Assembly: GCA_030750865.1 (NCBI GenBank)
Contig: JASMHE010000007.1
Coordinates: forward strand, 62,001-126,000
Reading direction: 5' to 3'
Source: Alphaproteobacteria bacterium
GTDB lineage: Bacteria > Pseudomonadota > Alphaproteobacteria > Micavibrionales > Micavibrionaceae
DNA: 64,000 nt
Shown here: positions 267 through 13,657 of the stretch, piece after piece
Numbering within the stretch: position 1 is the stretch's first letter
Layout: every line of letters starts with the position of its first letter
Made by a program: the position numbers and the translations under genes
Notes under the pieces: generated by a model
What the model saw: the letters and a program-made list of their open reading frames with translations, nothing else
The model's database searches: none
Told to the model about the DNA's origin: nothing

Positions 267-2978
267 TTAATTCCTGTGAATGATACCCGCAAGCGCCCCT
301 GTCGCACCACGGGCCTGCGCAATAAGGCGCTGCGCACCGATATAGCTCTGGCTGACGATCTGACCGGCATCTTCTTTGTTCAGATCACCGAATGTTGAGA
401 CACCCGCGCCCATCCAGCGCAGAATCTGGTTCGGAATGATATCAATCAGTTTAAAGGACGATGTTGCCAGCATATAGGCAATAATCGCATAAATAATCGT
501 ATAGAAAAGCTGGTCAATCTCACCACGGATGGAATCAATCAATGTCCCCATCGTTTCTTCGTCTATTTCCTCGGATGTGATTGCATCAACAGACTCCGTG
601 CTTGCCGTCGGCGCACCGGCCACATTAACCATGACCTGTTCCCAAATCTCATGCAGAATTTCCATTTGCGATGCGAAAATAATAATCGAGCCTAGCAGTC
701 CCGTCACCGCCAGAATCGGCCGTAAAAAGATTTCGAGAATCAGATAATATCCGTTCATCCCCTTCGGACCGGGCAAGCCGTCACCATCAACATGCATGTG
801 TGCCAATGCCCACAGCGGCAACCCGACCATCGCCTCGAAAATACTCTTTACCCATGTGCTCAACGCAAAGAAGAAATAGATAAATGGCAGGAACGGCAAC
901 AAGTAATACAGGATAAACCCGATCGACAAGCCGATAATCGCGACATTCGATAAAAAGCCGCTGGTCGCAAATAACGGTTTACTGACAACACTCGCGTCCA
1001 AGACGTTGGCGATACCGCCCCCGACAAAGCTGGCAAAAGACGCACCGAAGTTGTTCACGGCACTTTCAATCAATGACTTTCCGATACCGACAAGCTGCGC
1101 AAGCGGGTGAACCGTGCTGTTTTCCTGCATGTCCATCAGACCATCCAAACCGAACAATGCGGTAATACCGGACTGTAACATGCTCTGCTCTTTCACCTCA
1201 TAAGACTCAAACCAGAAAGACTGGGCATAATATAACGCCATCGCAATATATTGCTCCCGGTCTGTCTTGAAATCGACCACCTGCCCGTTTGGCAGAATCG
1301 GGTTAAAACGATCACGGCCACTGACCGGCGCGCCGGCCGCCTTGCGTTGATCCTCGACGGCTTCAAGCACCTCCGGATATTTTGTCCCTGTCGGCATTTT
1401 GAAAACGGATTCAATGACCGCGCCATTCATTTCGGCAATTGTATTATACCAAAGCGCCGCACCGGCCCAGCCATATTTATCAAACTCTTTTTCCCAGCGG
1501 CCATTATTGACTTGTTCGGATACCGCCTTATTGACCAGACTATTTTCAGGATCATACGGATTGTATAACACATCGTTGAAATATTGATATTCAAGCAACA
1601 CAGCATCCATATCCAGACTACGGCTCGGATACGGGTTTTTCTCTACAGCGGGAACAATCTGGCGTGACATACCACTGGTATAATCCCAGATGATTTCATC
1701 ACCCCACAGCTTCATAATCAGATCATAGTACGCCTCTTGCACAGCCACGGCGCCCGGTTCTTGTGTGCTTGGAAGTGGCATCGTCAGTTCACCGCAAATA
1801 GGGCGTATACTGCCCTGATATTGACTGTAGGTGTCTTTATATTCACCAAAAACAATGCGGACCTCATCCATACCCAGTTCGTTCACAAAATCGAGCACAT
1901 CAGAATACGGTGTCCGTTCATCGTACTTCAATCCCAAAGAAAGGCGCCCTGCCTTTGCGGCTCCGGATCCGTCTGCTTCTTCCGATAATTGCGGTCCCAC
2001 AGCGTAAGCCATTGCGAACAAATCCTTCATATCCCAATATGCGTAAACGCACGTATTGGCCGTGTATACGAATTCAATCAACGTGTTTACGGTCGGCGAA
2101 TTTGGCCGTGCCATCAGGGCCGCCGGATCACCCAGCGGTGTCATTGCGCTGCTATTTGCATCGGTGAACTGACGCCAGCCATTTGTGCCCAAGTTCGAGC
2201 CCCACTTGGCAATATGCAATGTCACATATTGCGCGCCATTCAAATTATAGGACGACCCAAACGGTGTCAGCAACGCGAGAACAATAATCAAACGGATTGG
2301 CGCCCAGAATTTGTTGAAACGCTGACCAAATGCCGCACCGGATTTTGCTGTTTCCGCAACAATCGTTGTAATCAAATAGATAAATCCGATCAGTGCAATC
2401 GCCAGCAAACCATAGTTGTAGAACAGGAATAATTCATGCAAGCCCTGATGGAACGGCGATGTGTCACCATCCATAAATTCATAGGAACAGCCCGTGCCCG
2501 AACCATCGCCACCCGCAATACATTCGAAAATCTTTTCATAGCCGAAAACACGGTTCAGCATTATATAAGCAATATCATTTTCCGTATCGGAATTGCCGAG
2601 AAAATATGCGACCGTATCACCGATACCCGCCGCCTGCGCCATCGGTATCAGCGCCAAAAATATCGCGGCAAAGAACTGGAACGCGAGTAGAATGAGCCCC
2701 AGAACCACACAGAAAAAGATAACAATCTGATCTGCATTTTCTCTTTTAAATGAAAGATGTTGCCACGCTTCGACAATCACATGGCGAATACCGAACCGTC
2801 CGGCATTTTCCGCCATCAGATAAGGATGTGTCGCTGGCAAAAGTCTGGCTGAACGGAAAAGATACGCAATATAGACCGCGATATGGCGTAAGCCGTCAAC
2901 GAAGAACAGTTTGATACGCGGGAGGATACCCGGCATCAATGTATATTTTGCAATTTTCTTCGGACTTATATGCATCAT
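267..2978 (-). CDS. DotA/TraY-family membrane protein, paralog 1 (last of three)
   Basis: Predicted inner-membrane protein of the DotA/TraY family, 903 residues, close to the usual 900-1,050. The N-terminal 80 residues carry basic and aromatic motifs shared by all three paralogs (MPGILPRIK, RSARLLPATHPYL, GRFGIRHV). A hydrophobic segment at about 84-112 ends in AQA-A, like a late signal-peptidase site. A membrane hairpin lies near 187-250, a long polar region predicted periplasmic from about 260 to 660, then several membrane segments. C-terminal hallmarks are PLWALAHMHVDGDGLPG, EIFLRPIL and IPNQILRWMG. In Dot/Icm and IncI systems DotA/TraY is an essential integral-membrane component of the type IVB machine. 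The gene lies 44 bp after paralog 2 and is probably cotranscribed. Family assignment rests on recognition of these motifs; the cellular role here is inferred. Confidence 0.85.
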   Translation of the reverse strand: MMHISPKKIAKYTLMPGILPRIKLFFVDGLRHIAVYIAYLFRSARLLPATHPYLMAENAGRFGIRHVIVEAWQHLSFKRENADQIVIFFCVVLGLILLAFQFFAAIFLALIPMAQAAGIGDTVAYFLGNSDTENDIAYIMLNRVFGYEKIFECIAGGDGSGTGCSYEFMDGDTSPFHQGLHELFLFYNYGLLAIALIGFIYLITTIVAETAKSGAAFGQRFNKFWAPIRLIIVLALLTPFGSSYNLNGAQYVTLHIAKWGSNLGTNGWRQFTDANSSAMTPLGDPAALMARPNSPTVNTLIEFVYTANTCVYAYWDMKDLFAMAYAVGPQLSEEADGSGAAKAGRLSLGLKYDERTPYSDVLDFVNELGMDEVRIVFGEYKDTYSQYQGSIRPICGELTMPLPSTQEPGAVAVQEAYYDLIMKLWGDEIIWDYTSGMSRQIVPAVEKNPYPSRSLDMDAVLLEYQYFNDVLYNPYDPENSLVNKAVSEQVNNGRWEKEFDKYGWAGAALWYNTIAEMNGAVIESVFKMPTGTKYPEVLEAVEDQRKAAGAPVSGRDRFNPILPNGQVVDFKTDREQYIAMALYYAQSFWFESYEVKEQSMLQSGITALFGLDGLMDMQENSTVHPLAQLVGIGKSLIESAVNNFGASFASFVGGGIANVLDASVVSKPLFATSGFLSNVAIIGLSIGFILYYLLPFLPFIYFFFALSTWVKSIFEAMVGLPLWALAHMHVDGDGLPGPKGMNGYYLILEIFLRPILAVTGLLGSIIIFASQMEILHEIWEQVMVNVAGAPTASTESVDAITSEEIDEETMGTLIDSIRGEIDQLFYTIIYAIIAYMLATSSFKLIDIIPNQILRWMGAGVSTFGDLNKEDAGQIVSQSYIGAQRLIAQARGATGALAGIIHRN

Positions 2979-3022
2979 ATTCCATTCTGTCTTACCATGA
3001 CGTGTCTATAAATTATTCTGGG

Positions 3023-5803
3023 TTAGCCATTACTATTATTCTTGAACAATCCCTGCGCGTATGCTTTCGCACCGGCACCAACACGCTTACCGCCATCCAG
3101 CGCACTGGACATCGGACCACTGACCATCTGACCACCATACATCGCGTTCTTGACCAGACCTTGTGCAGGATCGTCACGCTGCTCCTGGAATACAGAAATA
3201 CTGACGCCCATCCAGCGGAAGATCTGGTTCGGGATCATATCTACCAATTTGAATGATGCCATACCCAGCATATAAGTAATCACAGCAAAGATAACCGTAT
3301 AGAAGAACTGGTCGATCGTGCCTCTGATATAATTGAACAGACCTGACGTATCATCTTCCACACATGTCTCGCCATCAATACATTCGGGATCGTAACCGGC
3401 AACGTTTGCAATCACCACGTCCCAGATTTCATTCAGAATATATATCTGCGCCGAGAAGATCGTAATAGATGCAAGCATCCCGAAAATAATCAAAATCGGC
3501 CGCAAGAAAATCTCCATAATCATAAAGTAACCACTGACCGCCGCATCACCGGGCAAACCATTACCATCAATCCGGATATGCGCCAGCGCCCAAAGCGGCA
3601 CGCCAACCATCGCTTCAAAGATACATTTGATCCAGCCACTGACGGCAAAGAAGAAATAAATAAATGGCAGGAACGGAATAATGTAATACAACACGAAACC
3701 GATACTCAGCGCCATTGTCGTGATTTTTGTCAGGAAACCACTGAACATCCGCAGCGGCATACCGAACATACCGTCACCGGCCAATGTCCCGATCGCGCCC
3801 GAGAACAGCGATATCTTAAATGTCGATATCGCACTTTCCATCAATGATTTACCGATCGCCGTTAACGCGGCCAGTGGGTGCGTATTATTCTCGATATTTT
3901 GACGCATATCCAGCAGACCTTTTGTCCCGAAGATCAGGTTAATCACATCGATGAAGACATTCCCCGTCGGTTCAACGGCGCGCCCGACATCTTCGTACAT
4001 TTTTGTCACGTTATATAATGTCTGCGCCAATGGTTCATCTTCCGGATTGGCCAAACGCACGGTCGTATCACCCGACAATTTCGGGTTAAAACGGTCCATG
4101 CCATCTGTTTCCGCGTTGTTTGCCGTTTTCTGTTCTAAAACCTCGTTCATCACAGCCGGGAAGTCCTGAATTTGCGGCACGTTATACACAGACCCGATCA
4201 AGCTGCCGTTCAATTCGGCGATTTTGTTATACCAAATACCGGCACCGGCCCAGCCATATTTCTCGCCGACTTGATCCCATTCGCTACTCTTGGCTTGTTC
4301 TGCGACCGCATGACTGATTAGCGCACTGATTTTCGTATCCAGAATATTGACCAGCGCCTTGACGTCAGCCTCTGTCGGTGTCGGCACGCGCGGAATATTC
4401 TCCTCGCCGACAGGCATATAACCTTTGGCCGCGCAATAACCGATCTGACCAACGGCCGAGAAATCCGATCCGGTCGGATCAACATTATAGCCACTTTCAT
4501 CTTCCGGACATTCTGTATTGGCGTTATTCACCCCGTCCCATAGCTGCTGGACGATATCGTACCACCCTTTTTCAAGGGCATAGGCACCAGGCATATATTG
4601 TTCTGTTGCTTGCGTCACCGTAACATTCAGACGAATAGACCCGCACACAGGTTCATTCGGCGTATCATGTTCGGATTCACGTACAAAATGAATCGCAATG
4701 GTGCGCCCGTCTGACGCGGCCACAGCTTCATCATAATCAGATGGCAACGGCATCAATCCGTTTGTCGATCCGCTCATATCCGTCGGGTTGTATAAATAGG
4801 CATTCACCGGATCTTCCGGCGCGTAAATATTGTCTTCTTTTGCGTATTTACAGGCCGAAACCAGCGTAAAGAAACTAACAAGATCGTTTGCTTCCGGCGC
4901 ATTCGGTGTCGCAAGAAGTTCTGACACAGGGTTACCGGCCAATGTGCGTGTACTCCCGCTACCGCCAGTCATGTCGCCTGACTCGGCGCCGCCGAGTGCT
5001 GTATCAACAAATAATTCCCATCCGTTGGTCGCAAAACCAGACCCCCATTTGGCCGCATACATCAAGATCCACTGCGCCGAATTCAAATTCTGTGTCACTG
5101 GAACAAGCAAACCAATGGCCACCACCATCCGGATCGGTGCCCACACATGGTTAAAGCGTTTACCGAACGGCGTGCCGCTTTGTGCCGTTTCGGCCACAAC
5201 CGCGATCACGAAATAAATGAAAATGAGCGTCGCAACAATCAACAGCCCCATACTGTAGAACTGGAACATATTCTGCAACGCGATATGGAACGGATACGGA
5301 TATTCGCCATCTGCGATACCGCCTTCCGTACACGGAATCCCTTGCGCCACACACGATCCGAACATATCCCGTAAACCGAAAACACGGTCCATCAGGACAA
5401 AGGCAATATCATAGGTCGGATCATCCGTACCGAATAAATCGGAAAAATTACTGATCCCCGCCGCCTGCGCCGTTTGAACGAACAGCGAAATGGTCAACGT
5501 TATCATCTGCATCCCGATAATCGCGAGCCCGAACAAAATAATGAAATACACCAATATCTGGTCAATATTCTGTTTACGGAACGATAGGTTCGATGCGGCT
5601 TCGGATAAAACATGCCGAATGCCAAACCGTCCGACATTCTCATAATAAAGATACGGGTGTCCCGCTGGCAGCAGACGCGCCGCACGATAAATCTGCGCCA
5701 TAAATAATGCAACATGCGCAAAGCCCGACCCGACCAGCTCTTTTACACGTGGTACGACCTGGGGCAAAAACACATATTTCAAAATTTGTTTTGCAGCTAT
5801 CAT
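3023..5803 (-). CDS. DotA/TraY-family membrane protein, paralog 2 (middle)
   Basis: Second DotA/TraY-like protein, 926 residues, colinear with its neighbours. It starts MIAAKQILKYVFLPQVVPRV, has the RAARLLPAGHPYL and GRFGIRHVL motifs, a hydrophobic stretch at about 82-110 ending in AQA-A (112-115), then TPFGKRFNHVWAPIRMVVA, GWAGAGIWYNKIAELNGS, THPLAALTAIGKSLMESAI, VGVPLWALAHIRIDGNGLPG and IFLRPILIIFG. The central polar region differs most from the other copies and contains several cysteines that could pair in the periplasm. ATG at 5803 is preceded by AGGA about 11 bp upstream. It lies 60 bp from the stop-proximal end of paralog 3 and 44 bp before paralog 1, which suggests one operon. Assembly into a secretion channel is an inference from the family. 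Confidence 0.85.
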   Translation of the reverse strand: MIAAKQILKYVFLPQVVPRVKELVGSGFAHVALFMAQIYRAARLLPAGHPYLYYENVGRFGIRHVLSEAASNLSFRKQNIDQILVYFIILFGLAIIGMQMITLTISLFVQTAQAAGISNFSDLFGTDDPTYDIAFVLMDRVFGLRDMFGSCVAQGIPCTEGGIADGEYPYPFHIALQNMFQFYSMGLLIVATLIFIYFVIAVVAETAQSGTPFGKRFNHVWAPIRMVVAIGLLVPVTQNLNSAQWILMYAAKWGSGFATNGWELFVDTALGGAESGDMTGGSGSTRTLAGNPVSELLATPNAPEANDLVSFFTLVSACKYAKEDNIYAPEDPVNAYLYNPTDMSGSTNGLMPLPSDYDEAVAASDGRTIAIHFVRESEHDTPNEPVCGSIRLNVTVTQATEQYMPGAYALEKGWYDIVQQLWDGVNNANTECPEDESGYNVDPTGSDFSAVGQIGYCAAKGYMPVGEENIPRVPTPTEADVKALVNILDTKISALISHAVAEQAKSSEWDQVGEKYGWAGAGIWYNKIAELNGSLIGSVYNVPQIQDFPAVMNEVLEQKTANNAETDGMDRFNPKLSGDTTVRLANPEDEPLAQTLYNVTKMYEDVGRAVEPTGNVFIDVINLIFGTKGLLDMRQNIENNTHPLAALTAIGKSLMESAISTFKISLFSGAIGTLAGDGMFGMPLRMFSGFLTKITTMALSIGFVLYYIIPFLPFIYFFFAVSGWIKCIFEAMVGVPLWALAHIRIDGNGLPGDAAVSGYFMIMEIFLRPILIIFGMLASITIFSAQIYILNEIWDVVIANVAGYDPECIDGETCVEDDTSGLFNYIRGTIDQFFYTVIFAVITYMLGMASFKLVDMIPNQIFRWMGVSISVFQEQRDDPAQGLVKNAMYGGQMVSGPMSSALDGGKRVGAGAKAYAQGLFKNNSNG

Positions 5804-5863
5804 ATTATCTTTATTCCTGTTTCATTCCTTTTTTACGTCGTGTCTTATTCACTCAATACGTTC

Positions 5864-8800
5864 CTATCTTTCGCCACCAAGATTTGAATTCGCATTCCGG
5901 TTAAATAACCCGAACGGCGTACCCACCACATTACCTGCGGCACGCGCACCCTGGTTTGCGGCCTGTACAGCCTGACCACTAACGGTGTTACCACCAATCG
6001 CAGCATATTGCATAAGCCCTTCTTTCGCATCCGGTGCCTGATCGGCGAAGGATTGCGCACCGGAACCGATCCAGCGGATAATACCGTTCGGGATCAAATC
6101 AATCATTTTGAATGATGCCGTTGCAATCATGTAAACCAGAACCGTATAGATGATCGTAAAGAAGAATTCATCAATCTCGTTCCGTCTGTTTTTGGCCTGC
6201 AATGCCGCTGCATCACCGGTTTCACCACCCGTACACGCATCTGCCGTATCGGAGGCCAAACATTCAAAACCGGCCACGTTATCGGTTACCAATGTGAACA
6301 CATCGTTCAGCGTTCTCACTGTTGCCGAGAAAATCGCCATACCGGACAACAACCCGAAGACACATAAAATCGGCCGCAAGAAAATCTCGAAAATCAAATA
6401 ATAACCGTTCGCGGCTGTTTCACCAGGCAGGCCGTTACCGTCAATACGCAAGTGTGCCAACGCCCAAAGCGGCACAGCCACCATCGCTTCGAAAATTGTC
6501 TTGATCCACTGCCCCACGGCAAAGAAGAAATACAAGAACGGCAGGAACGGCAAAATATAATACAACATGAAGCCAATCGTCAGACCGATCGTTGTGAAAG
6601 CAGAAAACATCTGCGATACACCCTCACCAATACCCTGCAGGCCACCTTCTTTTGCTGTTTCCGCGATACCACCGCCAAACGAGAATGCAAGCGAGGTCAA
6701 CAAGTTTCGCACGGCGGCATCCATAATGCCCTTACCAAGTGCCGAGAGTTGCGCCAATGGGTGCGTTTGCACATCTTCGCGCATCGAATACAAACTGCTG
6801 ATCCCAAACAGGCTACCGATCATATCTTTGATGATATTACCGCTTTTTTGCTCGGTGGCGGATGAAACCTGCCCCGAGACAACCCAGTCCTGATATGTGG
6901 TCACCAGCGCCTGCGCAATTTCTTTCAGCACATTATTATTAAACTGGATTTCTTCACCGTTACTCAGTTCAAGACTATAAACACTATCCGGCGTCGAATT
7001 CTCGTTACTCGCCTGAACCTCTTCTTTCAAACGGTTCATCACCGCAGGCATACGCGTCACATTCGGGCCAGCCATCACAGCAGAGAACAATGTCCCATTC
7101 CATTCCGCAATTTTATTGTACCAGATACCGGCGCCGCCCCAGCCACGTGCTTTCAGTTCATCAGACACCTTAAATTCTTCGGATTCCTGCAAGATTTCTT
7201 TCATCTTGTTATATGCACTGCCGGAATCATTCAAAAGCGCAGCGGCCACTTCAGACTGTAATGATGTATAGCTGGAATTTTTCCAGACACTATTCGGCAG
7301 AATATTCGGTTCGCCTTCTTCTTTTTCCGCCTCATCCTTACAAGCACTGCCATTCAATACATCCGCGCCGCCAACTTCAGCCACCTGGACATGACACCCG
7401 GTGACCGGCTTTGCACTATCGCCGTCAACTTTATCGACACTCATCGACATGGCGACCACGCGCTTTGCGTAACTGCGATAGGTTTCATTTTGCCACAGCT
7501 CCATCACCAGATTGTAATAAGCTTCCTGAATAATGTCCGATACTTCGGATTCTGTTGCCACAGCCGGAATCTCGATCTCGCCGCAATATGGCTCGACAAA
7601 CCCTTTCACGTTTTGGTTGATCTCTTCATCCTTGTGACCGAAACGGATCAAAATGTTCTCACCGTTATAAAATTCTTTGGCTTCGGCGTAATCACCGGCC
7701 AACATCGATTCATGCAGACTCTCGCCCGCTGCCATCGCATCAGCCTGTTTCACAAAATATGGCTGAATAACGCCGGAACCGCCGGACCCATCAGACCCGC
7801 CGCCGGAAATCGTTTGATCGATCTCTTCCGGTGCACTACTGCCGCCTGATGATGCCGTATAACGGATCGCAGGCGGTGTTTCGCTTGATGTGTCATAAGA
7901 CCCTGATTCCGTCAAAACCAGATTATCCGGCCGTGCATATTCATAACCGTATGAACATGTCAGAACCAGATTCATAAATTGTACCGTCGGATAAATATCG
8001 GGCGCTTTCGGGCGGGCAATGATCGATTCATCCTGTATGCCCAGCGCATTACTGAGACTGTCATTATATAAAATCCATGCATTTGTCGCAAAGCCCGACC
8101 CCATCTTCGCCGCATAAAGCGTAATATATTGCGCCGTATTCAGACCGTAATTCATCGGGATCAACAGCCCGATCGCAACCACCAGACGCAGCGGCGCCCA
8201 CACATGGTTAAAACGACGCCCGAACGGCGTACCGCTTTGGGCTGATTCACCGACCAGCAAGACAATGTAATACAGAAAGATAATAACGCCGATCAGCAAA
8301 ATCGCCAGACTGTAGAACCGGAATAACTCCTGTAAGCCCTGATTAAAGGCCGGAATCGCCCCCGCTGCGGGCGAGAATTTTGATCCGTACAACCCCGGAA
8401 TTGCAAAAACCTTGTCCAGCAACATGAAAGCCACATCATTTTCGGGCTCCGGTGTTGCAAAATACCCCATAAAACTATACCCGCCGCCGGTATCAGCCAG
8501 CGCCGGAGCAATAATAAATCCGCCAACAAGAAAGACAATTTGCGCCAAAAGAATCAGAAAACCGACAATCAGCGCGAAAAAGATAATAATCTGGTCTGTA
8601 TTTTCCTTTTTCAGAACAAGTCGCTCTGCTGCTTCGGTTATCACATGCCGAATACCGAACTTGCCGATGTTGGTCGGGTTCAAATATGGATGACCGGCCG
8701 GAAGCAGGCGCGTAGAGTGATATATGAGCGCCATAAGATGTGCAAGATAGCCAAATCCTGAGGACGTAAAAGATCTTATCCGCGGGATAATTCCCGGGAG

Positions 8801-8869
8801 CAACGCGTATTTGGCAACCGCCTTTGCATTAACCTTTTGAATTTCCAAAACTTTTCCCCACAATCGCAC
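5864..8869 (-). CDS. DotA/TraY-family membrane protein, paralog 3 (first in operon)
   Basis: Longest of the three DotA/TraY-like proteins (about 994-1,001 residues) and promoter-proximal. The first possible start is GTG at 8869; a TTG at 8848 has GGGGA six bases upstream and gives an N-terminus matching the other paralogs in length, so the true start is uncertain. Shared motifs include YALLPGIIPRIRSF, STRLLPAGHPYL, KFGIRHVITEA, TPFGRRFNHVWAPLRLVVA, GWGGAGIWYNKIAEWNGT, THPLAQLSALGKGIMDAAV and VAVPLWALAHLRIDGNGLPG. The first hydrophobic segment ends ALA-D at about 123-126. A Gly/Ser-rich, low-complexity insert at roughly 335-370 is absent from the other two and looks like a flexible linker in the periplasmic domain. 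Function is inferred from the type IVB secretion family. Confidence 0.85.
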   Translation of the reverse strand: MRLWGKVLEIQKVNAKAVAKYALLPGIIPRIRSFTSSGFGYLAHLMALIYHSTRLLPAGHPYLNPTNIGKFGIRHVITEAAERLVLKKENTDQIIIFFALIVGFLILLAQIVFLVGGFIIAPALADTGGGYSFMGYFATPEPENDVAFMLLDKVFAIPGLYGSKFSPAAGAIPAFNQGLQELFRFYSLAILLIGVIIFLYYIVLLVGESAQSGTPFGRRFNHVWAPLRLVVAIGLLIPMNYGLNTAQYITLYAAKMGSGFATNAWILYNDSLSNALGIQDESIIARPKAPDIYPTVQFMNLVLTCSYGYEYARPDNLVLTESGSYDTSSETPPAIRYTASSGGSSAPEEIDQTISGGGSDGSGGSGVIQPYFVKQADAMAAGESLHESMLAGDYAEAKEFYNGENILIRFGHKDEEINQNVKGFVEPYCGEIEIPAVATESEVSDIIQEAYYNLVMELWQNETYRSYAKRVVAMSMSVDKVDGDSAKPVTGCHVQVAEVGGADVLNGSACKDEAEKEEGEPNILPNSVWKNSSYTSLQSEVAAALLNDSGSAYNKMKEILQESEEFKVSDELKARGWGGAGIWYNKIAEWNGTLFSAVMAGPNVTRMPAVMNRLKEEVQASNENSTPDSVYSLELSNGEEIQFNNNVLKEIAQALVTTYQDWVVSGQVSSATEQKSGNIIKDMIGSLFGISSLYSMREDVQTHPLAQLSALGKGIMDAAVRNLLTSLAFSFGGGIAETAKEGGLQGIGEGVSQMFSAFTTIGLTIGFMLYYILPFLPFLYFFFAVGQWIKTIFEAMVAVPLWALAHLRIDGNGLPGETAANGYYLIFEIFLRPILCVFGLLSGMAIFSATVRTLNDVFTLVTDNVAGFECLASDTADACTGGETGDAAALQAKNRRNEIDEFFFTIIYTVLVYMIATASFKMIDLIPNGIIRWIGSGAQSFADQAPDAKEGLMQYAAIGGNTVSGQAVQAANQGARAAGNVVGTPFGLFNRNANSNLGGER

Positions 8870-8988
8870 ATTTATTCCAGATTATCACTTCTAAGGATAC
8901 AGCGATTTTCGTAAAATTTGGTTAAAAAGAAGAAGAAATCCGGCATTGCACCGGACCTTATAACGTACGCACACTATTCTATACGTTT

Positions 8989-9023
8989 GGCATGTGAAAA
9001 ACCAGCCCGGTTTTTCACATGCC
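8989..9023. terminator. perfect 15-bp inverted repeat downstream of ettA
   Basis: Arms 8989-9003 (GGCATGTGAAAAACC) and 9009-9023 are exact reverse complements around a 5-base loop. It lies between the stop of ettA and the start of the DotA/TraY operon, both on the minus strand. The stem is strong but no clean T-tract follows on the minus strand, so it may be a terminator for ettA, an RNA-stability element, or a protein-binding palindrome upstream of the operon. Confidence 0.5.
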
Positions 9024-9067
9024 GTGTCTTATATTTTGACAATGATCGAAACAGCTATTGAGATAGA

Positions 9068-10747
9068 CTATCCGGCCTTGCGCAACGGCTTATATTTAAT
9101 GCGTGTCGGCTGATCCGCATCCGCACCCATACGGCGCTTATAGTCCTTTTCATAGTCTTCATAGTTTCCTTCGAACCATGTCACCTGAGAATCACCTTCA
9201 AAGGCCAGAATATGTGTCGCCAGACGATCCAGAAACGCACGATCGTGTGAAATCACCACTGCACAGCCCGGAAAACGTTCCAGCGCTTCTTCCAGTGCAG
9301 ACAATGTTTCCGTATCCAGATCGTTGGTCGGTTCGTCGAGCAGCAGCACATTCGACGGATCTTTCAGCATTTTCGCCAAATGCACACGGTTTCGTTCACC
9401 GCCCGATAAATCGCCGACTTTCTTTTGCTGGTTCGTGCCGGAGAAATTGAACGATGCGACGTACGCACGGCTTTGCATTTCAAATTTACCCAGCTTAATC
9501 ATATCAAGGCCGTCCGAGATTTCCTCCCAGACCGTTTTGTTCGAATCCAGCGAATCGCGGCTTTGGTCAACATAACCGAGTTCGACCGTATCACCGATAC
9601 GAATCGTCCCGCTATCCGGTTCTTCCTGTCCTGTAATCATCCGGAACAATGTTGTTTTACCGGCACCGTTCGGCCCGATCACACCGACAATACCGCCCGG
9701 CGGCAATTTAAAGGACAAATCCTCAATCAACAGGCGGTCCTCATAGCCTTTCGACAGGTTCGTTGCTTCGATAACCAAATCCCCCAAACGCGGCGGTGTC
9801 TGGATTGTAATTTGTGATTTGCGCTGATCGACCTTTTGAGATTCTGCCAGCAACTCTTCGTACGCCGAAATACGCGCTTTGGATTTTTTGCGCCGTCCTT
9901 CGGGGCTTTGACGAATCCAGTCGAGTTCGCGATCCAGCGTTTTCTGGCGTGACACTTCGGTACGGGCTTCTTGTTCCATACGCTTGCGTTTTGCATCCAG
10001 ATAAGCAGAATAATTGCCTTCGTAGGGAATACCGCTGCCACGGTCAATTTCCAAAATCCAGCCCGTTACGTTATCAAGGAAATAACGATCGTGCGTGACC
10101 ATCACAACCGTACCGCTGTAATCAGACAAGAAACGCTGCAACCATGCGACACTTTCCGCGTCAAGGTGGTTGGTCGGTTCGTCGAGTAGCAGCAAGTCGG
10201 GTTTTTCAAGCAGCAAACGGCATAGCGCAACGCGGCGGCGTTCACCACCGGATAATTTTGTAACATTCGCATCACCGGGCGGGCAGCGCAGCGCATTCAT
10301 CGCAATCGCGACCGTCCGGTCAATTTCCCAGCCATCAACCGCATCAATTTTTTCTTGCAACTCACCCATTTCAGCCATCAGTGCATCAAAATCGGCATCA
10401 GGTTCTGCCATTTCAACACTGACCTGATTATAGCGGTCAATCATACCTTTCACATCACTCAGCGCTTCCAGAATATTTTCTTCAACGGTTTTACCGGGAT
10501 CCAGTTCCGGTTCTTGTTCCAGATACCCGACGCGCGCGCCCTTTGCTGACCATGCCTCACCGACAAAATCAGTGTCGCGGCCCGCCATGATTTTCAGCAA
10601 AGTCGATTTACCCGCGCCGTTCGGCCCCAGAACACCGATTTTCGCACCGGGGAAGAAACTCAGCGTTACATCTTCCAGCACCTTTTTGCCACCGGGAAAT
10701 GTTTTACTCAGTCCGTTCATAACATAGACATATTCATAGGATGCCAT
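9068..10747 (-). CDS. ettA: energy-dependent translational throttle protein EttA (ABC-F ATPase)
   Basis: Soluble ABC-F protein of 559 residues (E. coli EttA has 555). It binds the ribosomal E site and gates entry into elongation according to ATP/ADP. Two ABC domains are visible: Walker [17 protein letters not shown] near residue 40, signature LSGGERRRV and Walker [13 protein letters not shown]; then Walker [26 protein letters not shown] and [12 protein letters not shown] charged helical linker ([20 protein letters not shown]) joins them, and an arm-like insertion precedes the first signature. The N-terminus [21 protein letters not shown] is EttA-like rather than Uup- or YheS-like. The start is ATG 10747, with AGAGG eight bases upstream; a TTG two codons earlier lacks such spacing. 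There are no membrane segments. Confidence 0.96.
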
Positions 10748-10853
10748 TACCAAAGCCTCTTAAACTGTTTGAATTCATACATATATATAATGTGATATCG
10801 TGTGGCAGAACGTACCAGAAAACGGGCCGTTTACAAAGCCCGAATATCAAAAT

Positions 10854-10913: not shown

Positions 10914-13376
10914 TTAGAAACGCCAGCCCATCTGAATACCGGCAGAGCTGATTGTCTCTGTTTTGTTTGATTGGAAATCATATTGCTGACCGACACCGAC
11001 ATTTGCATTCATAAAGAAATTATCGCCTGTGTCCTGACCTGTTGCTGACTCGACGAAGTCACGTGCAACATTGGTCAAATCAACGTTCACACCGGCCACA
11101 ACCGCGGCGCGTGTTCTGTGATCGTGAAAGTCCATATTTTGTCCGGCCTGTGTTTTATCCGCACCATACAGTGAAGCCATATTTTCCTGACTTCCCAGTA
11201 CAGAGTCATAAGACACACCGGCATCAACATAATATTCAAACATACCGGCCAAACTGTCATCCTGCGTTTCATAACCTGTCGGCTTCCAGCTCAGGCGGGC
11301 ATTTGCCGCCGCAACCGTACCATCCAGTTCTGACAGACCGAAACGATTGTCAATCTGGTGCAATTCACCTTGTGCGCGCCATTTGAATTCATCACCCAGA
11401 TGGCCATCTGCACCCAGATACAAGGACACCTGACGTTCTGTATCCGTATCAGCGTCACCATATTGTGGGACAGAACTGTAAACATCACGTGTTTCCGTGA
11501 TATCACGTGTTTCTGTTACATCGCGTGTTTCCGTAATATCGCGTGTTTCTGTAATATCGCGCATTTCCGTGACAGCCGGCACATCGACTGTGCGTGTACC
11601 ATACTGGGCCGGAATAGTGTCATAAACATTATTGTCATAGAAAAGCGGTTCACCGAATTGACCGAATTGCTGGTTACCGGCCGCATCAAGCATCGGGTCA
11701 CCCGCGCTATGCAAAAGCACTTCTTGTTCCGGTGAGATCAGATATTCTTCTTCGTAGCTGTACGCTTCTTCGATAACAACTTCTTCTTGCCCGACAACAA
11801 CGTCTTCCTGTCCGACGACAACTTCTTCTTGCCCGACAACAACATCTTCCTGTCCGACAACAACCGTTTCCTGACCTGTTACAACATCCTGATAGCCCTG
11901 AAATGCTGTCACAGAACCGCCGTAGCTGGCCTGACGGTATGTCGCACCGGCATAAACATTATCCAGCCAGTCATGGCCTTCATAGCTTTTGGTCCATGCC
12001 GCACCAACTTCAAAACCGTGATCGAACTCGACAGATCCCGGCAGGATATTACTGACCGTTTCACCAAGTCCTGTGCCATCAACCATGAAAGCACCATGCA
12101 CAGTGAAATCACCGTTATTTTCTGTTTCATGCGTATAAGAACCGCCCAGTTTCAGCACATCATAGAAACCTGTGTTAAAGTACACAGCTTCATCAGGCAT
12201 GATAAGAGCCGGACCGCTGCGGGCCGGATTAGCCATAGAAAGCGGCGCAAGATTTTCAACATCACGGCCAAAGACAATGTTAAAGGATTCGTCTTCGTCA
12301 ACGCGGTGATCAAGCTGCAACAGCAAATCGCCTGCGGCATATTGCGGATCATAGAAGAAATCCGTATCGCCGTCTTTGTTAAACTGGCGGATTTCAGCCA
12401 AAGCGCTCAATGTTGTATCGGGATCAATCTCGAACGTACCGCCGATTGCAACAACAGGCTTCTTGTTCACATAGATTTGTTCCGCATCAAGACTGCCACC
12501 ATTCACAGGATCATATTCTGTGACCGGCGGTGTGATTGTTTCAAATTCATAGCCGACTGTCACTGCAACAGAAACGCCATCATCTGTTTCTGCCTCTGTT
12601 TCCGCAACAACAGGCTCTTCAGCGGGTTCTTCTTCCGCAGGAGCAGGTACGAATTCAACTTGTTCTTCTTCTGCAGCCGGTTCTTCTTCGACCACTGTTT
12701 CTTCGACCTCTTCGACGACAGGTTGCTCTTCGGCAACAGGCTCATCTTCAACAGGCTGTTCTTCTTCTTCGACAACCGGTACAACAACAGGCTCTTGTTC
12801 AACTTGTTCTTCTTCTGCGACTGGTTCTTCTTCGACCGCAACCTGCTCATCACCGCTATCACCAACAACAGCCACAACAACATCATCGTCTTCGCATGGC
12901 TCGTCTTCAGCGGCAGCATCAGCGTCGCCTTCGCCATCATCGGATTCATCATCCTGAATTTCTGTTTGAACCTGCACTTCGTCTTCTTTGTTCATTGCCG
13001 TCATTGTTGCATCAGGATCGTCTTCGCCCGGTACGCTCGGATCGGCAGGGGCTTCCTGCTCTACCTCGGCAACCACTTCTTCTTCGGCATCTTGTTCTTC
13101 AGGCAAATATATGAAGTAATTCTGCGTATCCAGTCCGCCATTGTCGTAATAATCACACGGATCCAAGAACAATCCTGTGCCGATCAATGTCAGTCCTTCG
13201 GGCGCTGATGATGGCGGCGCATCGACAACCATACGGTTTTCCTGCGCGGCAACCAGTTCCGCATCTGTCTCACAATCACAGGACGAGAAATAACGTGATC
13301 CGGCAAGACCAAGCAAAAGCCCGACAGCCGTTGACGCTGCAATTGTTGTATAAAAACGTTTTTTTGAAATTTCCAT
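10914..13376 (-). CDS. large acidic, repeat-containing putative outer-membrane protein
   Basis: About 820 residues from ATG 13376, chosen because AGAGGA lies eight bases upstream. An N-terminal basic stretch and hydrophobic segment (about 6-26) look like a signal peptide or anchor. Residues about 90-265 are extremely acidic and Val/Pro-rich. From about 270 the sequence alternates short amphipathic strands and ends in GIQMGWRF, with the terminal Phe typical of outer-membrane beta-barrels. Two repeat tracts interrupt the barrel-like part: heptads of the VVVGQED/VVVGQEE type (about 497-535) and hexads of the RDITET type (about 606-631). No family name is recognised. The gene stands alone between two intergenic regions and has its own terminator. 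A surface-exposed barrel with extended repeats, or a periplasm-spanning acidic protein, are the best readings; function is unknown. Confidence 0.75.
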   Translation of the reverse strand: MEISKKRFYTTIAASTAVGLLLGLAGSRYFSSCDCETDAELVAAQENRMVVDAPPSSAPEGLTLIGTGLFLDPCDYYDNGGLDTQNYFIYLPEEQDAEEEVVAEVEQEAPADPSVPGEDDPDATMTAMNKEDEVQVQTEIQDDESDDGEGDADAAAEDEPCEDDDVVVAVVGDSGDEQVAVEEEPVAEEEQVEQEPVVVPVVEEEEQPVEDEPVAEEQPVVEEVEETVVEEEPAAEEEQVEFVPAPAEEEPAEEPVVAETEAETDDGVSVAVTVGYEFETITPPVTEYDPVNGGSLDAEQIYVNKKPVVAIGGTFEIDPDTTLSALAEIRQFNKDGDTDFFYDPQYAAGDLLLQLDHRVDEDESFNIVFGRDVENLAPLSMANPARSGPALIMPDEAVYFNTGFYDVLKLGGSYTHETENNGDFTVHGAFMVDGTGLGETVSNILPGSVEFDHGFEVGAAWTKSYEGHDWLDNVYAGATYRQASYGGSVTAFQGYQDVVTGQETVVVGQEDVVVGQEEVVVGQEDVVVGQEEVVIEEAYSYEEEYLISPEQEVLLHSAGDPMLDAAGNQQFGQFGEPLFYDNNVYDTIPAQYGTRTVDVPAVTEMRDITETRDITETRDVTETRDITETRDVYSSVPQYGDADTDTERQVSLYLGADGHLGDEFKWRAQGELHQIDNRFGLSELDGTVAAANARLSWKPTGYETQDDSLAGMFEYYVDAGVSYDSVLGSQENMASLYGADKTQAGQNMDFHDHRTRAAVVAGVNVDLTNVARDFVESATGQDTGDNFFMNANVGVGQQYDFQSNKTETISSAGIQMGWRF
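11484..11561 (-). repeat. 18-bp coding tandem repeat (RDITET units)
   Basis: Four to five consecutive copies of an 18-base unit encoding R-D-I/V-T-E-T inside the acidic outer-membrane protein gene. The copies differ by single I/V changes, so the array is recent or homogenised and could change copy number. Confidence 0.85.
11772..11888 (-). repeat. 21-bp coding tandem repeat (VVVGQE-E/D units)
   Basis: About five copies of a 21-base unit encoding V-V-V-G-Q-E-D/E, with D and E alternating so that the effective period is 42 bases. The array lies in the same gene as the RDITET repeat and about 200 bases from it. Confidence 0.85.
12585..12848 (-). repeat. degenerate acidic Glu/Val/Pro-rich coding region
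   Basis: Codes for loosely repeated PVAEEEQVE-like and PVVEEEEQ-like segments in the N-terminal half of the acidic outer-membrane protein. The repetition is imperfect at DNA level; it creates spuriously long open frames on the opposite strand. Confidence 0.7.
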
Positions 13377-13657
13377 TGAACACATCCTCTTCAATTTCTA
13401 TTCGCCGCACGACACAGCTACAATTTGTAACAGGGCTGCGTATCAGTTTTTCTTTAAGGAACTGTTTTGTAACACACACAGACCAATATTTCATATGTAA
13501 ATATTTATCAGGGCTGGAACTTATCACCAACAAGGCACTTATGTCAAACTTTTTGTCACGAAAAAAATCGGGTTTTCTACAACAGGAAAGCAGCGTATGC
13601 TCGGGGCTATATTCTTTGCGCAAGTCGTGCTAATCTGACCCTCAAAAAGGATAACAT

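Follow-up and report, generated by a model that had tools for sequence, protein, structure and literature searches.

Three neighboring genes in the genome of a bacterium of the Micavibrio family encode three different versions of DotA/TraY, the central channel protein of type IVB secretion systems. This tripled set recurs across Micavibrio-type bacteria, which include predators feeding on other bacteria, although the published genome paper on the cultured predator Micavibrio aeruginosavorus ARL-13 reported no type IV system. The genes lie in the window analyzed here, a stretch of 64,000 nucleotides (contig JASMHE010000007.1, positions 62,001 to 126,000, assembly GCA_030750865.1), and were first pointed out in an initial annotation based on the sequence alone, the observation of which is confirmed by our data, whereas its interpretation is only partly supported.

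The DotA/TraY Paralogs

The three intact open reading frames are all located on the minus strand, which the initial annotation did not state. The first in transcription (8869-5864, GTG start as listed) encodes 1001 aa, the second (5803-3023) 926 aa, and the third (2978-267) 903 aa. They are separated by gaps of 60 nt (5804-5863) and 44 nt (2979-3022), inside which no terminator-like site was listed. The comparison with the TIGR04346 profile, the lack of a match to which had been named beforehand as grounds for dismissing the observation, gave 251.3, 259.4, and 204.2 bits, respectively, versus a cut-off of 100. The E-values in this genome of 2.19 Mb are 1.1e-72, 7.6e-77, and 1.0e-56. No other hits were found in the genome, and none of the 14 control genomes showed a match, which rules out chance. 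The pairwise identities amount to 42.1, 40.7, and 38.0%. On the other hand, the Legionella-type equivalog model NF033886 is missed by far (145.9, 169.4, and 173.1 bits, cut-off 500): these proteins are relatives of the Legionella DotA rather than equivalogs.

Hydropathy scans showed 5, 6, and 7 segments in copies 1, 2, and 3, respectively, with a long gap from about residue 210-250 to about residue 680-760, as expected of polytopic membrane proteins with a large hydrophilic central region. The structure was predicted for copy 2 only. The AlphaFold model (pLDDT 82.6, pTM 0.76) best matches the Legionella DotA 9ngy (Foldseek E 3.7e-14; Z 21.1 over 583 residues), followed by VirB6/TrwI (Z 9.8, 8.6, and 8.4). 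Pentameric assembly was not examined.

Some features described in the initial annotation had to be corrected. The TPFGxRFNxVWAP landmark, said to be shared by all three proteins, is exact in two copies only, since the copy at 267-2978 reads AAFGQRFNKFWAP. Because of the strand, what had been taken to be downstream (to the right) is in fact upstream, and the true downstream region lies to the left of position 267. The Gly/Ser-rich stretch of the first copy is real (58% G+S over 24 residues), but is not a conserved trait of first copies, as only 3 of 52 reach 60%, and these do so elsewhere in the protein. The claim that the copies diverge mainly in the large central region was found to hold: in 48 sequences, the mean identities per window are 0.19-0.32 for residues 328-596, as compared with 0.69-0.78 for residues 714-773, which include the PLWALAH/GLPG block.

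Genomic Context and Evolution of the Arrays

The upstream border of the locus is formed by an EttA-like ABC-F ATPase (9068-10753, minus strand; Pfam ABC_tran and ABC_tran_Xtn), which is a flanking gene and not part of the secretion system. A 16-pair hairpin detected at 8988-9024 by a consensus scan only, between EttA and copy 1, may separate the two transcription units. The initial annotation had suggested that the trio might be part of a larger locus extending to the left and proposed looking there for dot homologs. This was not borne out: the next 20 kb hold MlaC, MlaA, LptG, LptF, two aminopeptidases, prephenate dehydratase, and FtsK. Ten of the larger ORFs were scanned along with an eleventh (404 aa), which gave no match, and a further 20 kb were listed without being scanned. 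The searches for DotH, DotO, DotC, and the coupling protein hit other contigs only.

The trio occupies an old site (EttA - DotA - MlaC/MlaA/LptG) where sister families carry a single DotA, which points to tandem duplication in place. EttA is next to the array in 43 of 59 arrays and next to DotA in the outgroup loci L169, L170, L171, and L178. The two flank counts, 43 of 59 and 46 of 60, exclude the second entry of a genome present twice (loci L185 and L097; 44 of 60 and 47 of 61 with it). In genome G500 (locus L174), DotA is the last gene after DotI, DotH, a TrbI/DotG gene, and an acidic ORF, and is adjacent to MlaC and MlaA. In genome G048 (L137/L214), the trio, the TraW/IcmX-like array described below, DotI, and DotH lie within about 21 kb.

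Among the 52 complete arrays examined, 46 have three copies and 6 have four, none have fewer, and all are on one strand. These arrays are the best matches to the trio's own profile and not a random sample. The gap from the stop to the first start codon is under 100 nt in 100 of 110 cases (106 of 110 between open frames). A DotA match was found in 79 of 79 high-quality genomes of the family. Open frames of 1812-1876 aa in genomes G103, G049, G004, and G024 suggested that fused DotA-DotA proteins might exist. However, separate frames were obtained for G103 and G024, and separate ORFs are present in the same contigs of G103 and G004 (L082 and L117). G049 was not checked, and no fusions are claimed here.

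In the trees, all 202 DotAs of the family form one clade with a support of 100 (also 100 with 87 rows). Copy 1 belongs to a clade of mostly first-position copies, and copies 2 and 3 to a clade of second/third copies, copy 3 being derived at the TPFGxRFNxVWAP region. Copies 2 and 3 split separately in several lineages, which fits repeated duplication or gene conversion and weakens the idea of three fixed ancient subunits. Our data do not separate these two processes: the window identities were mostly flat, and only residues 193-252 differ clearly (0.65 between second copies, 0.48 between third copies, and 0.51 between copies 2 and 3 within a genome).

The possibility that the copies are redundant or decaying duplicates kept for dosage, decaying duplicates having been named in the initial annotation as a refuting outcome, is very unlikely. 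Third copies are a little less conserved between lineages and have partly lost one landmark motif. This view is nevertheless contradicted by the presence of at least three long intact copies in 52 of 52 complete arrays, although copies of one position from different lineages are only about 0.38-0.43 identical on average over the windows. No stop was found inside any of the DotA matches inspected, which did not include all matches.

Other Components of the Type IVB Secretion System

The other core genes of a dispersed type IVB system were identified on other contigs of the same genome. Contig C1 carries the outer-membrane core genes DotC (6.4e-78), DotD (1.1e-35), and DotH, as well as DotI (1.6e-66) and a T2SSE ATPase (1.7e-35) beside DotC, identified as DotB by its position. 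DotO (E 0) is located on contig C2. A 455-aa gene next to DotH (C1:35163-36530) is a candidate for DotG/IcmE (VirB10-type): its TrbI match (E 0.0013, 19 bits) is below the cut-off of 35, whereas the gene in the same place in L174 passes it (38.1 bits), so that the identity of the gene in the present genome was left undecided. A PF12696 match (6.1e-11) in a 921-aa frame at C9:64668-65021 suggests a coupling protein, but this model also matches 4 of the 14 control genomes, and the identity of the frame as DotL was not examined. The IcmS/IcmW adaptors, DotU/IcmF, and effectors were not searched for.

DotH is single in all 97 genomes with a match, of the 104 analyzed, and DotO in 9 of 9, two of them outside the family. 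The DotI model gave two matches in five and four matches in two of the seven family genomes tested, and the coupling-protein model one or two, which shows that DotA and the family described below are not the only multiplied parts. Genomes G055 and G098 (99 and 100% complete) have DotA but no DotC, DotH, or TraW/IcmX-like match, and G095 lacks the last two. The idea put forward in the initial annotation that the DotA proteins might be stand-alone or repurposed, for example as adhesins, without a secretion system, fits the finding that no partner was found within the window and that G055 and G098 lack detectable DotC and DotH. It is the least likely of the readings considered and is contradicted for the present genome, since core genes are present elsewhere in it, DotH occurs in 97 of 104 family genomes, and the parts lie together in G048. 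A stripped-down or repurposed system, which the initial annotation had also suggested, is not supported for this genome, since core genes are present elsewhere in it.

A TraW/IcmX-like Array

A second family of secreted proteins beside DotI also forms a tandem array, with five genes in the present genome (C1:39669-46673), divergent from DotI. Gene order and weak profile matches point to TraW/IcmX, the partner of DotA, but this assignment is less well supported. When the TraW profile was compared with 2854 ORFs, six hits were obtained under E 0.01: four belong to this family (two of them being one gene in two strains) and two are plasmid genes located two places before DotA. Direct hhalign of the TraW profile with the array family was unsuccessful (probability 0.2%), no PDB or NCBIfam hit was found for the family, and a PDB search with TraW yielded no relative. 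The sequence data thus do not settle the identity in either direction. The expected position between DotO/TraU and DotA/TraY is found in the outside relative G389 (DotO - 181 aa - relative - DotA, with DotA at G389:C117:5974-7716), as in plasmids, but not in the present genome, so that position leaves the matter undecided as well. The model of a member from L137 had a pLDDT of only 35.8 and says nothing either way about an IcmX/VirB5 fold. A gene beside DotO in locus L210, thought by eye to be an HNH nuclease like the one beside TraU in the plasmids, gave no Pfam match and was not used as evidence.

Neither a fixed number of five genes nor a one-to-one correspondence with DotA was found. Over the 104 family genomes, there were 0 matches in 3 genomes, 1 in 1, 2 in 3, 3 in 20, 4 in 28, 5 in 35, 6 in 13, and 7 in 1, although a match can be a fragment. 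G511 has one DotA and five TraW/IcmX-like matches, whereas M. aeruginosavorus has three DotAs and two such matches. The array tree is poorly resolved (15 of 55 inner branches starred).

Possible Function of the Tripled Channel Protein

The explanation we favor, with moderate confidence, is that the trio encodes three diverged subunits of the DotA/TraY (VirB6-type) inner-membrane/periplasmic channel protein of one chromosomal type IVB secretion system, the other genes of which are dispersed and, in the case of DotH, DotO, and DotC, single-copy where found. The analysis itself establishes the family membership, the fold of one copy as predicted, the intactness and uniqueness of the genes in the genome, the shared site, the presence of other core genes, and the retention of three or more copies in all the complete arrays examined. 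It is by inference only that the three DotAs are taken to be made together and to build one mixed-subunit protochannel, a hetero-oligomer in place of the Legionella DotA pentamer, capped by mixed IcmX/TraW-like subunits, and that this machine delivers macromolecules across contact with other cells and, in the predatory members, into prey. The heteromeric channel, which the initial annotation had also suggested, was not tested directly, and no assembly, expression, or secretion data were available. If the array is indeed TraW/IcmX, the two proteins forming the pentameric channel in Legionella would both be multiplied.

Alternatively, each DotA might form its own homopentamer, and the cell might swap channels depending on the life phase, prey, or substrate. 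This reading is possible but tentative. The TraW/IcmX-like partner is also multiplied and variable in number, and the central regions diverge while the membrane core is kept. However, the tight one-strand packing argues for joint expression, and the numbers of partners and DotAs do not match one to one. It also seems unlikely, but possible, that the system is a chromosomal conjugation machine rather than a protein injector. Its parts are related to plasmid TraU and, weakly, to TraW, the gene order DotO - small ORF - TraW-like - DotA in G389 resembles the plasmid order TraU - TraW - TraX - TraY, and a coupling-protein domain is present. On the other hand, the dispersal of the genes over the chromosome, the DotA matches in all 79 high-quality family genomes, and the recurrent site between housekeeping genes are unlike a mobile element. 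A relaxase was not searched for.

How Micavibrio feeds from outside on its prey is open. The 2,481,983-bp genome of M. aeruginosavorus ARL-13 carries three DotAs, DotC, DotH, DotI, DotO, and two members of the TraW/IcmX-like family, which makes a contact-dependent delivery machine directly testable in a cultured predator. A natural set of three co-encoded DotAs also provides a handle on the symmetry and gating of the DotA-IcmX channel. No papers dealing with both Micavibrio and DotA were found, and further literature searches, in which most subscription journals were not covered, showed no earlier report of this system (PMC3189940, PMC10482364, PMC8012365, PMC4451040). A more speculative and rather doubtful possibility, which is not excluded by the data, is that Micavibrio-type bacteria, predators among them, attack other cells with a type IVB machine whose central channel is a true hetero-oligomer, with three dedicated DotA subunits below a cap assembled from up to five different IcmX/TraW-like subunits. 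Each position of the pentamer could then be specialized for prey docking, gating, and passage, and this machine would be the overlooked feeding or killing device.

Comparison with Known Systems

In Legionella pneumophila, DotA (VirB6-type) forms with IcmX the pentameric protochannel of the Dot/Icm system (PDB 9ngy, 9nh0; PMC12857230, PMC12981334). The present proteins belong to the same family based on the profile and, in the case of copy 2, on the predicted fold, and DotC, DotD, DotH, DotI, DotO, and a DotB-like ATPase are present too. The Legionella DotA is encoded by one gene, whereas three paralogs occur here. In the IncI-type (MPF_I) plasmid conjugation systems, TraY, which is covered by TIGR04346, occurs with TraW and TraU. 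Relatives of TraU (DotO) and, weakly, of TraW are present in our case, but the system is chromosomal and dispersed, and TraY and probably TraW are multiplied.

Tandem DotA sets also occur outside the family, in the same order of bacteria, in genomes G507 (L179, three genes) and G494 (L178, at least two, the second being cut by the contig end). Their origins are separate, as the three copies of G507 group together (support 100), as do the two of G494 (98). The closest known parallel is provided by the VirB6 paralogs of the Rickettsiales type IVA systems, in which multiplied VirB6-type channel genes occur in one cluster, the T4SS genes being spread over three clusters in A. phagocytophilum (four virB6 genes there and five in Rickettsia; PMC7648143). 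Those systems are of the VirB/VirD4 type, and A. phagocytophilum lacks virB5, whereas the present system is of type IVB, with the putative VirB5-type partner multiplied as well. Two separate origins are inferred.

Identification of the three DotA/TraY proteins

The genome carrying the trio consists of 2,188,131 bp in 14 contigs and has an estimated completeness of 99.75%; the stretch analyzed corresponds to C7:62001-126000 (contig C7). Three intact ORFs were identified on the minus strand, at positions 8869-5864, 5803-3023 and 2978-267 of the window. The initial annotation had made its case depend on a significant match to the DotA/TraY profile: all three ORFs pass the cut-off of the TIGR04346 DotA_TraY model, and they are the only hits of that model in the genome. 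The observation of three DotA/TraY paralogs was confirmed, whereas the interpretation proposed with it was partly supported. The pairwise identities range between 38.0 and 42.1%, and no Pfam family matched these proteins at E 0.1. An AlphaFold model of copy 2, built on 69 sequences (pLDDT 82.6, pTM 0.76), matches the Legionella DotA chain of the Dot/Icm protochannel (Foldseek E 3.7e-14; Z 21.1 over 583 residues, rmsd 6.1) and next the VirB6/TrwI protein of R388 (Z 9.8, 8.6, and 8.4). In the latter case the first unrelated row has a Z of 6.1, and values under about 13 can be due to chance in the case of helical proteins.

Genomic context and location of the partner genes

The genes lying to the left of the trio, which had been named beforehand as the place to look for dot homologs, are truly downstream of it because of the strand. 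They encode MlaC, MlaA, LptG, LptF, two leucyl aminopeptidases, prephenate dehydratase, and FtsK; ten of the larger ORFs of these 20 kb were scanned, and an eleventh gave no match. A 908-aa protein carrying a C-terminal AAA ATPase domain is encoded at C7:42043-44769 (minus strand; positions 43-2769 of the fetched stretch L006), and its best NCBIfam match is the anti-phage ATPase IteA, far below the cut-off of that model. A 16-pair hairpin is present at window positions 8988-9024, between EttA and the first DotA gene. At window positions 10914-13394 (minus strand), an 826-aa ORF has an acidic Glu/Val-rich half and short repeats of 18-42 nt, and shows only a weak, sub-threshold Pfam match.

The partners which were found lie elsewhere in the genome. 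Contig C1 carries a T2SSE ATPase at the place of DotB, DotC, DotD, DotH, DotI, and a sub-threshold TrbI-type DotG candidate; DotO is located at C2:85241-88180, and a coupling-protein domain was found in a 921-aa frame on C9. DotI (C1:37800-39428, minus strand) carries an N-terminal extension of about 360 residues before the DotI domain, if the listed start is right, and the DotI model has a second, weaker match on C2. The trio therefore belongs to a genome with a dispersed type IVB system.

Distribution in the family, the order, and the class

The named relatives found with the trio profile are Micavibrio sp. and other, mostly Alphaproteobacteria, MAGs. The genome belongs to the Micavibrionaceae, and the genome of M. 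aeruginosavorus ARL-13 (G038; one contig of 2,481,983 bp; PMC3189940), from the same GTDB family, has three DotAs, although the paper describing it reports no type IV system. Contig C3 of genome G092 belongs to Micavibrio sp. DHS20C02, and genome G037 is strain EPB. Micavibrio is filed under Bdellovibrionota by NCBI, whereas most of the record titles say Alphaproteobacteria.

A DotA match was found in 101 of the 104 genomes of the family (79 of 79 at high quality), in 135 of 142 genomes of the order, and in 17 of 385 sampled genomes of the class, four of which are from the family. Among 70 loci with flanks, taken as the best matches to the trio profile, 52 hold complete arrays: 46 of these have three copies, 6 have four, and none have fewer, all on one strand, while the 18 loci cut by a locus end were not counted. 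From stop to first start codon, 100 of 110 gaps are under 100 nt. DotH, by contrast, is single in 97 of 97 genomes with a match, 7 of the 104 having none; DotO is single in 9 of 9 genomes, and DotC is single in 12 and absent in 2 of 14. Not everything else is single, however, since the DotI model gives two matches in five and four matches in two of seven family genomes, and the coupling-protein model one or two. In the nearly complete genomes G055, G095, and G098 of the family, DotA was found but no DotH or TraW/IcmX-like match, and G055 and G098 have no DotC match either; whether this reflects missing contigs or real loss was not settled by the present data. In G048 (contig C4, loci L137/L214), the DotA trio, the TraW/IcmX-like array, DotI, and DotH lie within about 21 kb.

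Origin of the array

In the two sister families f177 and f179, the six fetched stretches (L169, L170, L171, L173, L174, and L177) hold one DotA each; in the profile search of the order, one more f177 genome (G501) has two matches, and two have none. DotA sits beside EttA in L169, L170, and L171, and beside MlaC and MlaA with LptG near in L169 and L174, whereas L177 has EttA about 3 kb off and L173 has neither. L178 (G494:C57, end of contig), from a further family, has EttA and at least two tandem DotAs, the second of which is cut by the contig end; these group with each other (support 98) and are of separate origin. None of these flanks were observed in L172, L175, L176, and L179. In the family carrying the trio, EttA lies within 1.5 kb upstream in 43 of 59 arrays with enough sequence, and MlaC lies within 1.5 kb, in convergent orientation, in 46 of 60. 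In L174, DotA follows DotI, DotH, and a TrbI/DotG gene in one strand run.

In the phylogeny, which had been suggested as a check on the three copies, all 202 family DotAs in the tree form one clade (support 100), as was again the case with 87 rows using IQ-TREE (support 100), and hence tandem amplification in place. A clade of 58 rows (support 96; 93 in the IQ-TREE analysis) holds mostly first-position copies, that of the window among them, while a basal lineage has its own first and second copies. The second and third copies share a clade (127 rows, support 98; 97 in the IQ-TREE analysis) and split separately in several lineages, which may reflect either repeated duplication or gene conversion, two processes that the analyses did not tell apart. 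Outside the family, genome G507, from another family of the order, has its own tandem triplet of DotA (L179, G507:C6:296279-306863), one member of which is 1330 aa long.

A second tandem array adjacent to DotI

Five tandem ORFs of 445-502 aa, divergent from DotI, are located at C1:39669-46673 (positions 3669-10673 of the fetched stretch L011). They are paralogs, four of them showing 35-38% identity to the first, and searches of Pfam, NCBIfam, and PDB gave no match. A profile built from them hits 129 of 142 genomes of the order. In G502, a genome with a single DotA, there is one member, which is again divergent from DotI, whereas only two TraW/IcmX-like genes were detected with this profile in M. 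aeruginosavorus. In G389, another alphaproteobacterium, a relative lies between DotO and DotA together with one small ORF, as TraW does between TraU and TraY in conjugative plasmids. When a profile of seven plasmid TraW proteins was run against 2854 ORFs, the first eleven places were occupied by members of this family or by the plasmid genes located two places before DotA (best E 6.1e-5; L141 and L142 are from close strains, and L155 and L182 are the same gene). On the other hand, the direct profile-profile alignment failed, and so did the fold prediction. We call this family TraW/IcmX-like, an assignment which we judge to be likely rather than certain; TraW corresponds to IcmX.

Functional interpretation

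In Legionella, DotA and IcmX form a central pentameric protochannel that opens on host contact (PMC12857230; PMC12981334). In the present family, DotA and, probably, its IcmX-type partner are multiplied, while DotH, DotO, and DotC are not where tested. The simplest functional reading is that of a channel and cap built from several different subunits and used in contact with other cells; since the family includes predators, prey contact is the likely setting. Joint assembly of the subunits and their use on prey are inferences. The Rickettsiales show the same theme in type IVA form, with four or five VirB6 paralogs (PMC7648143).
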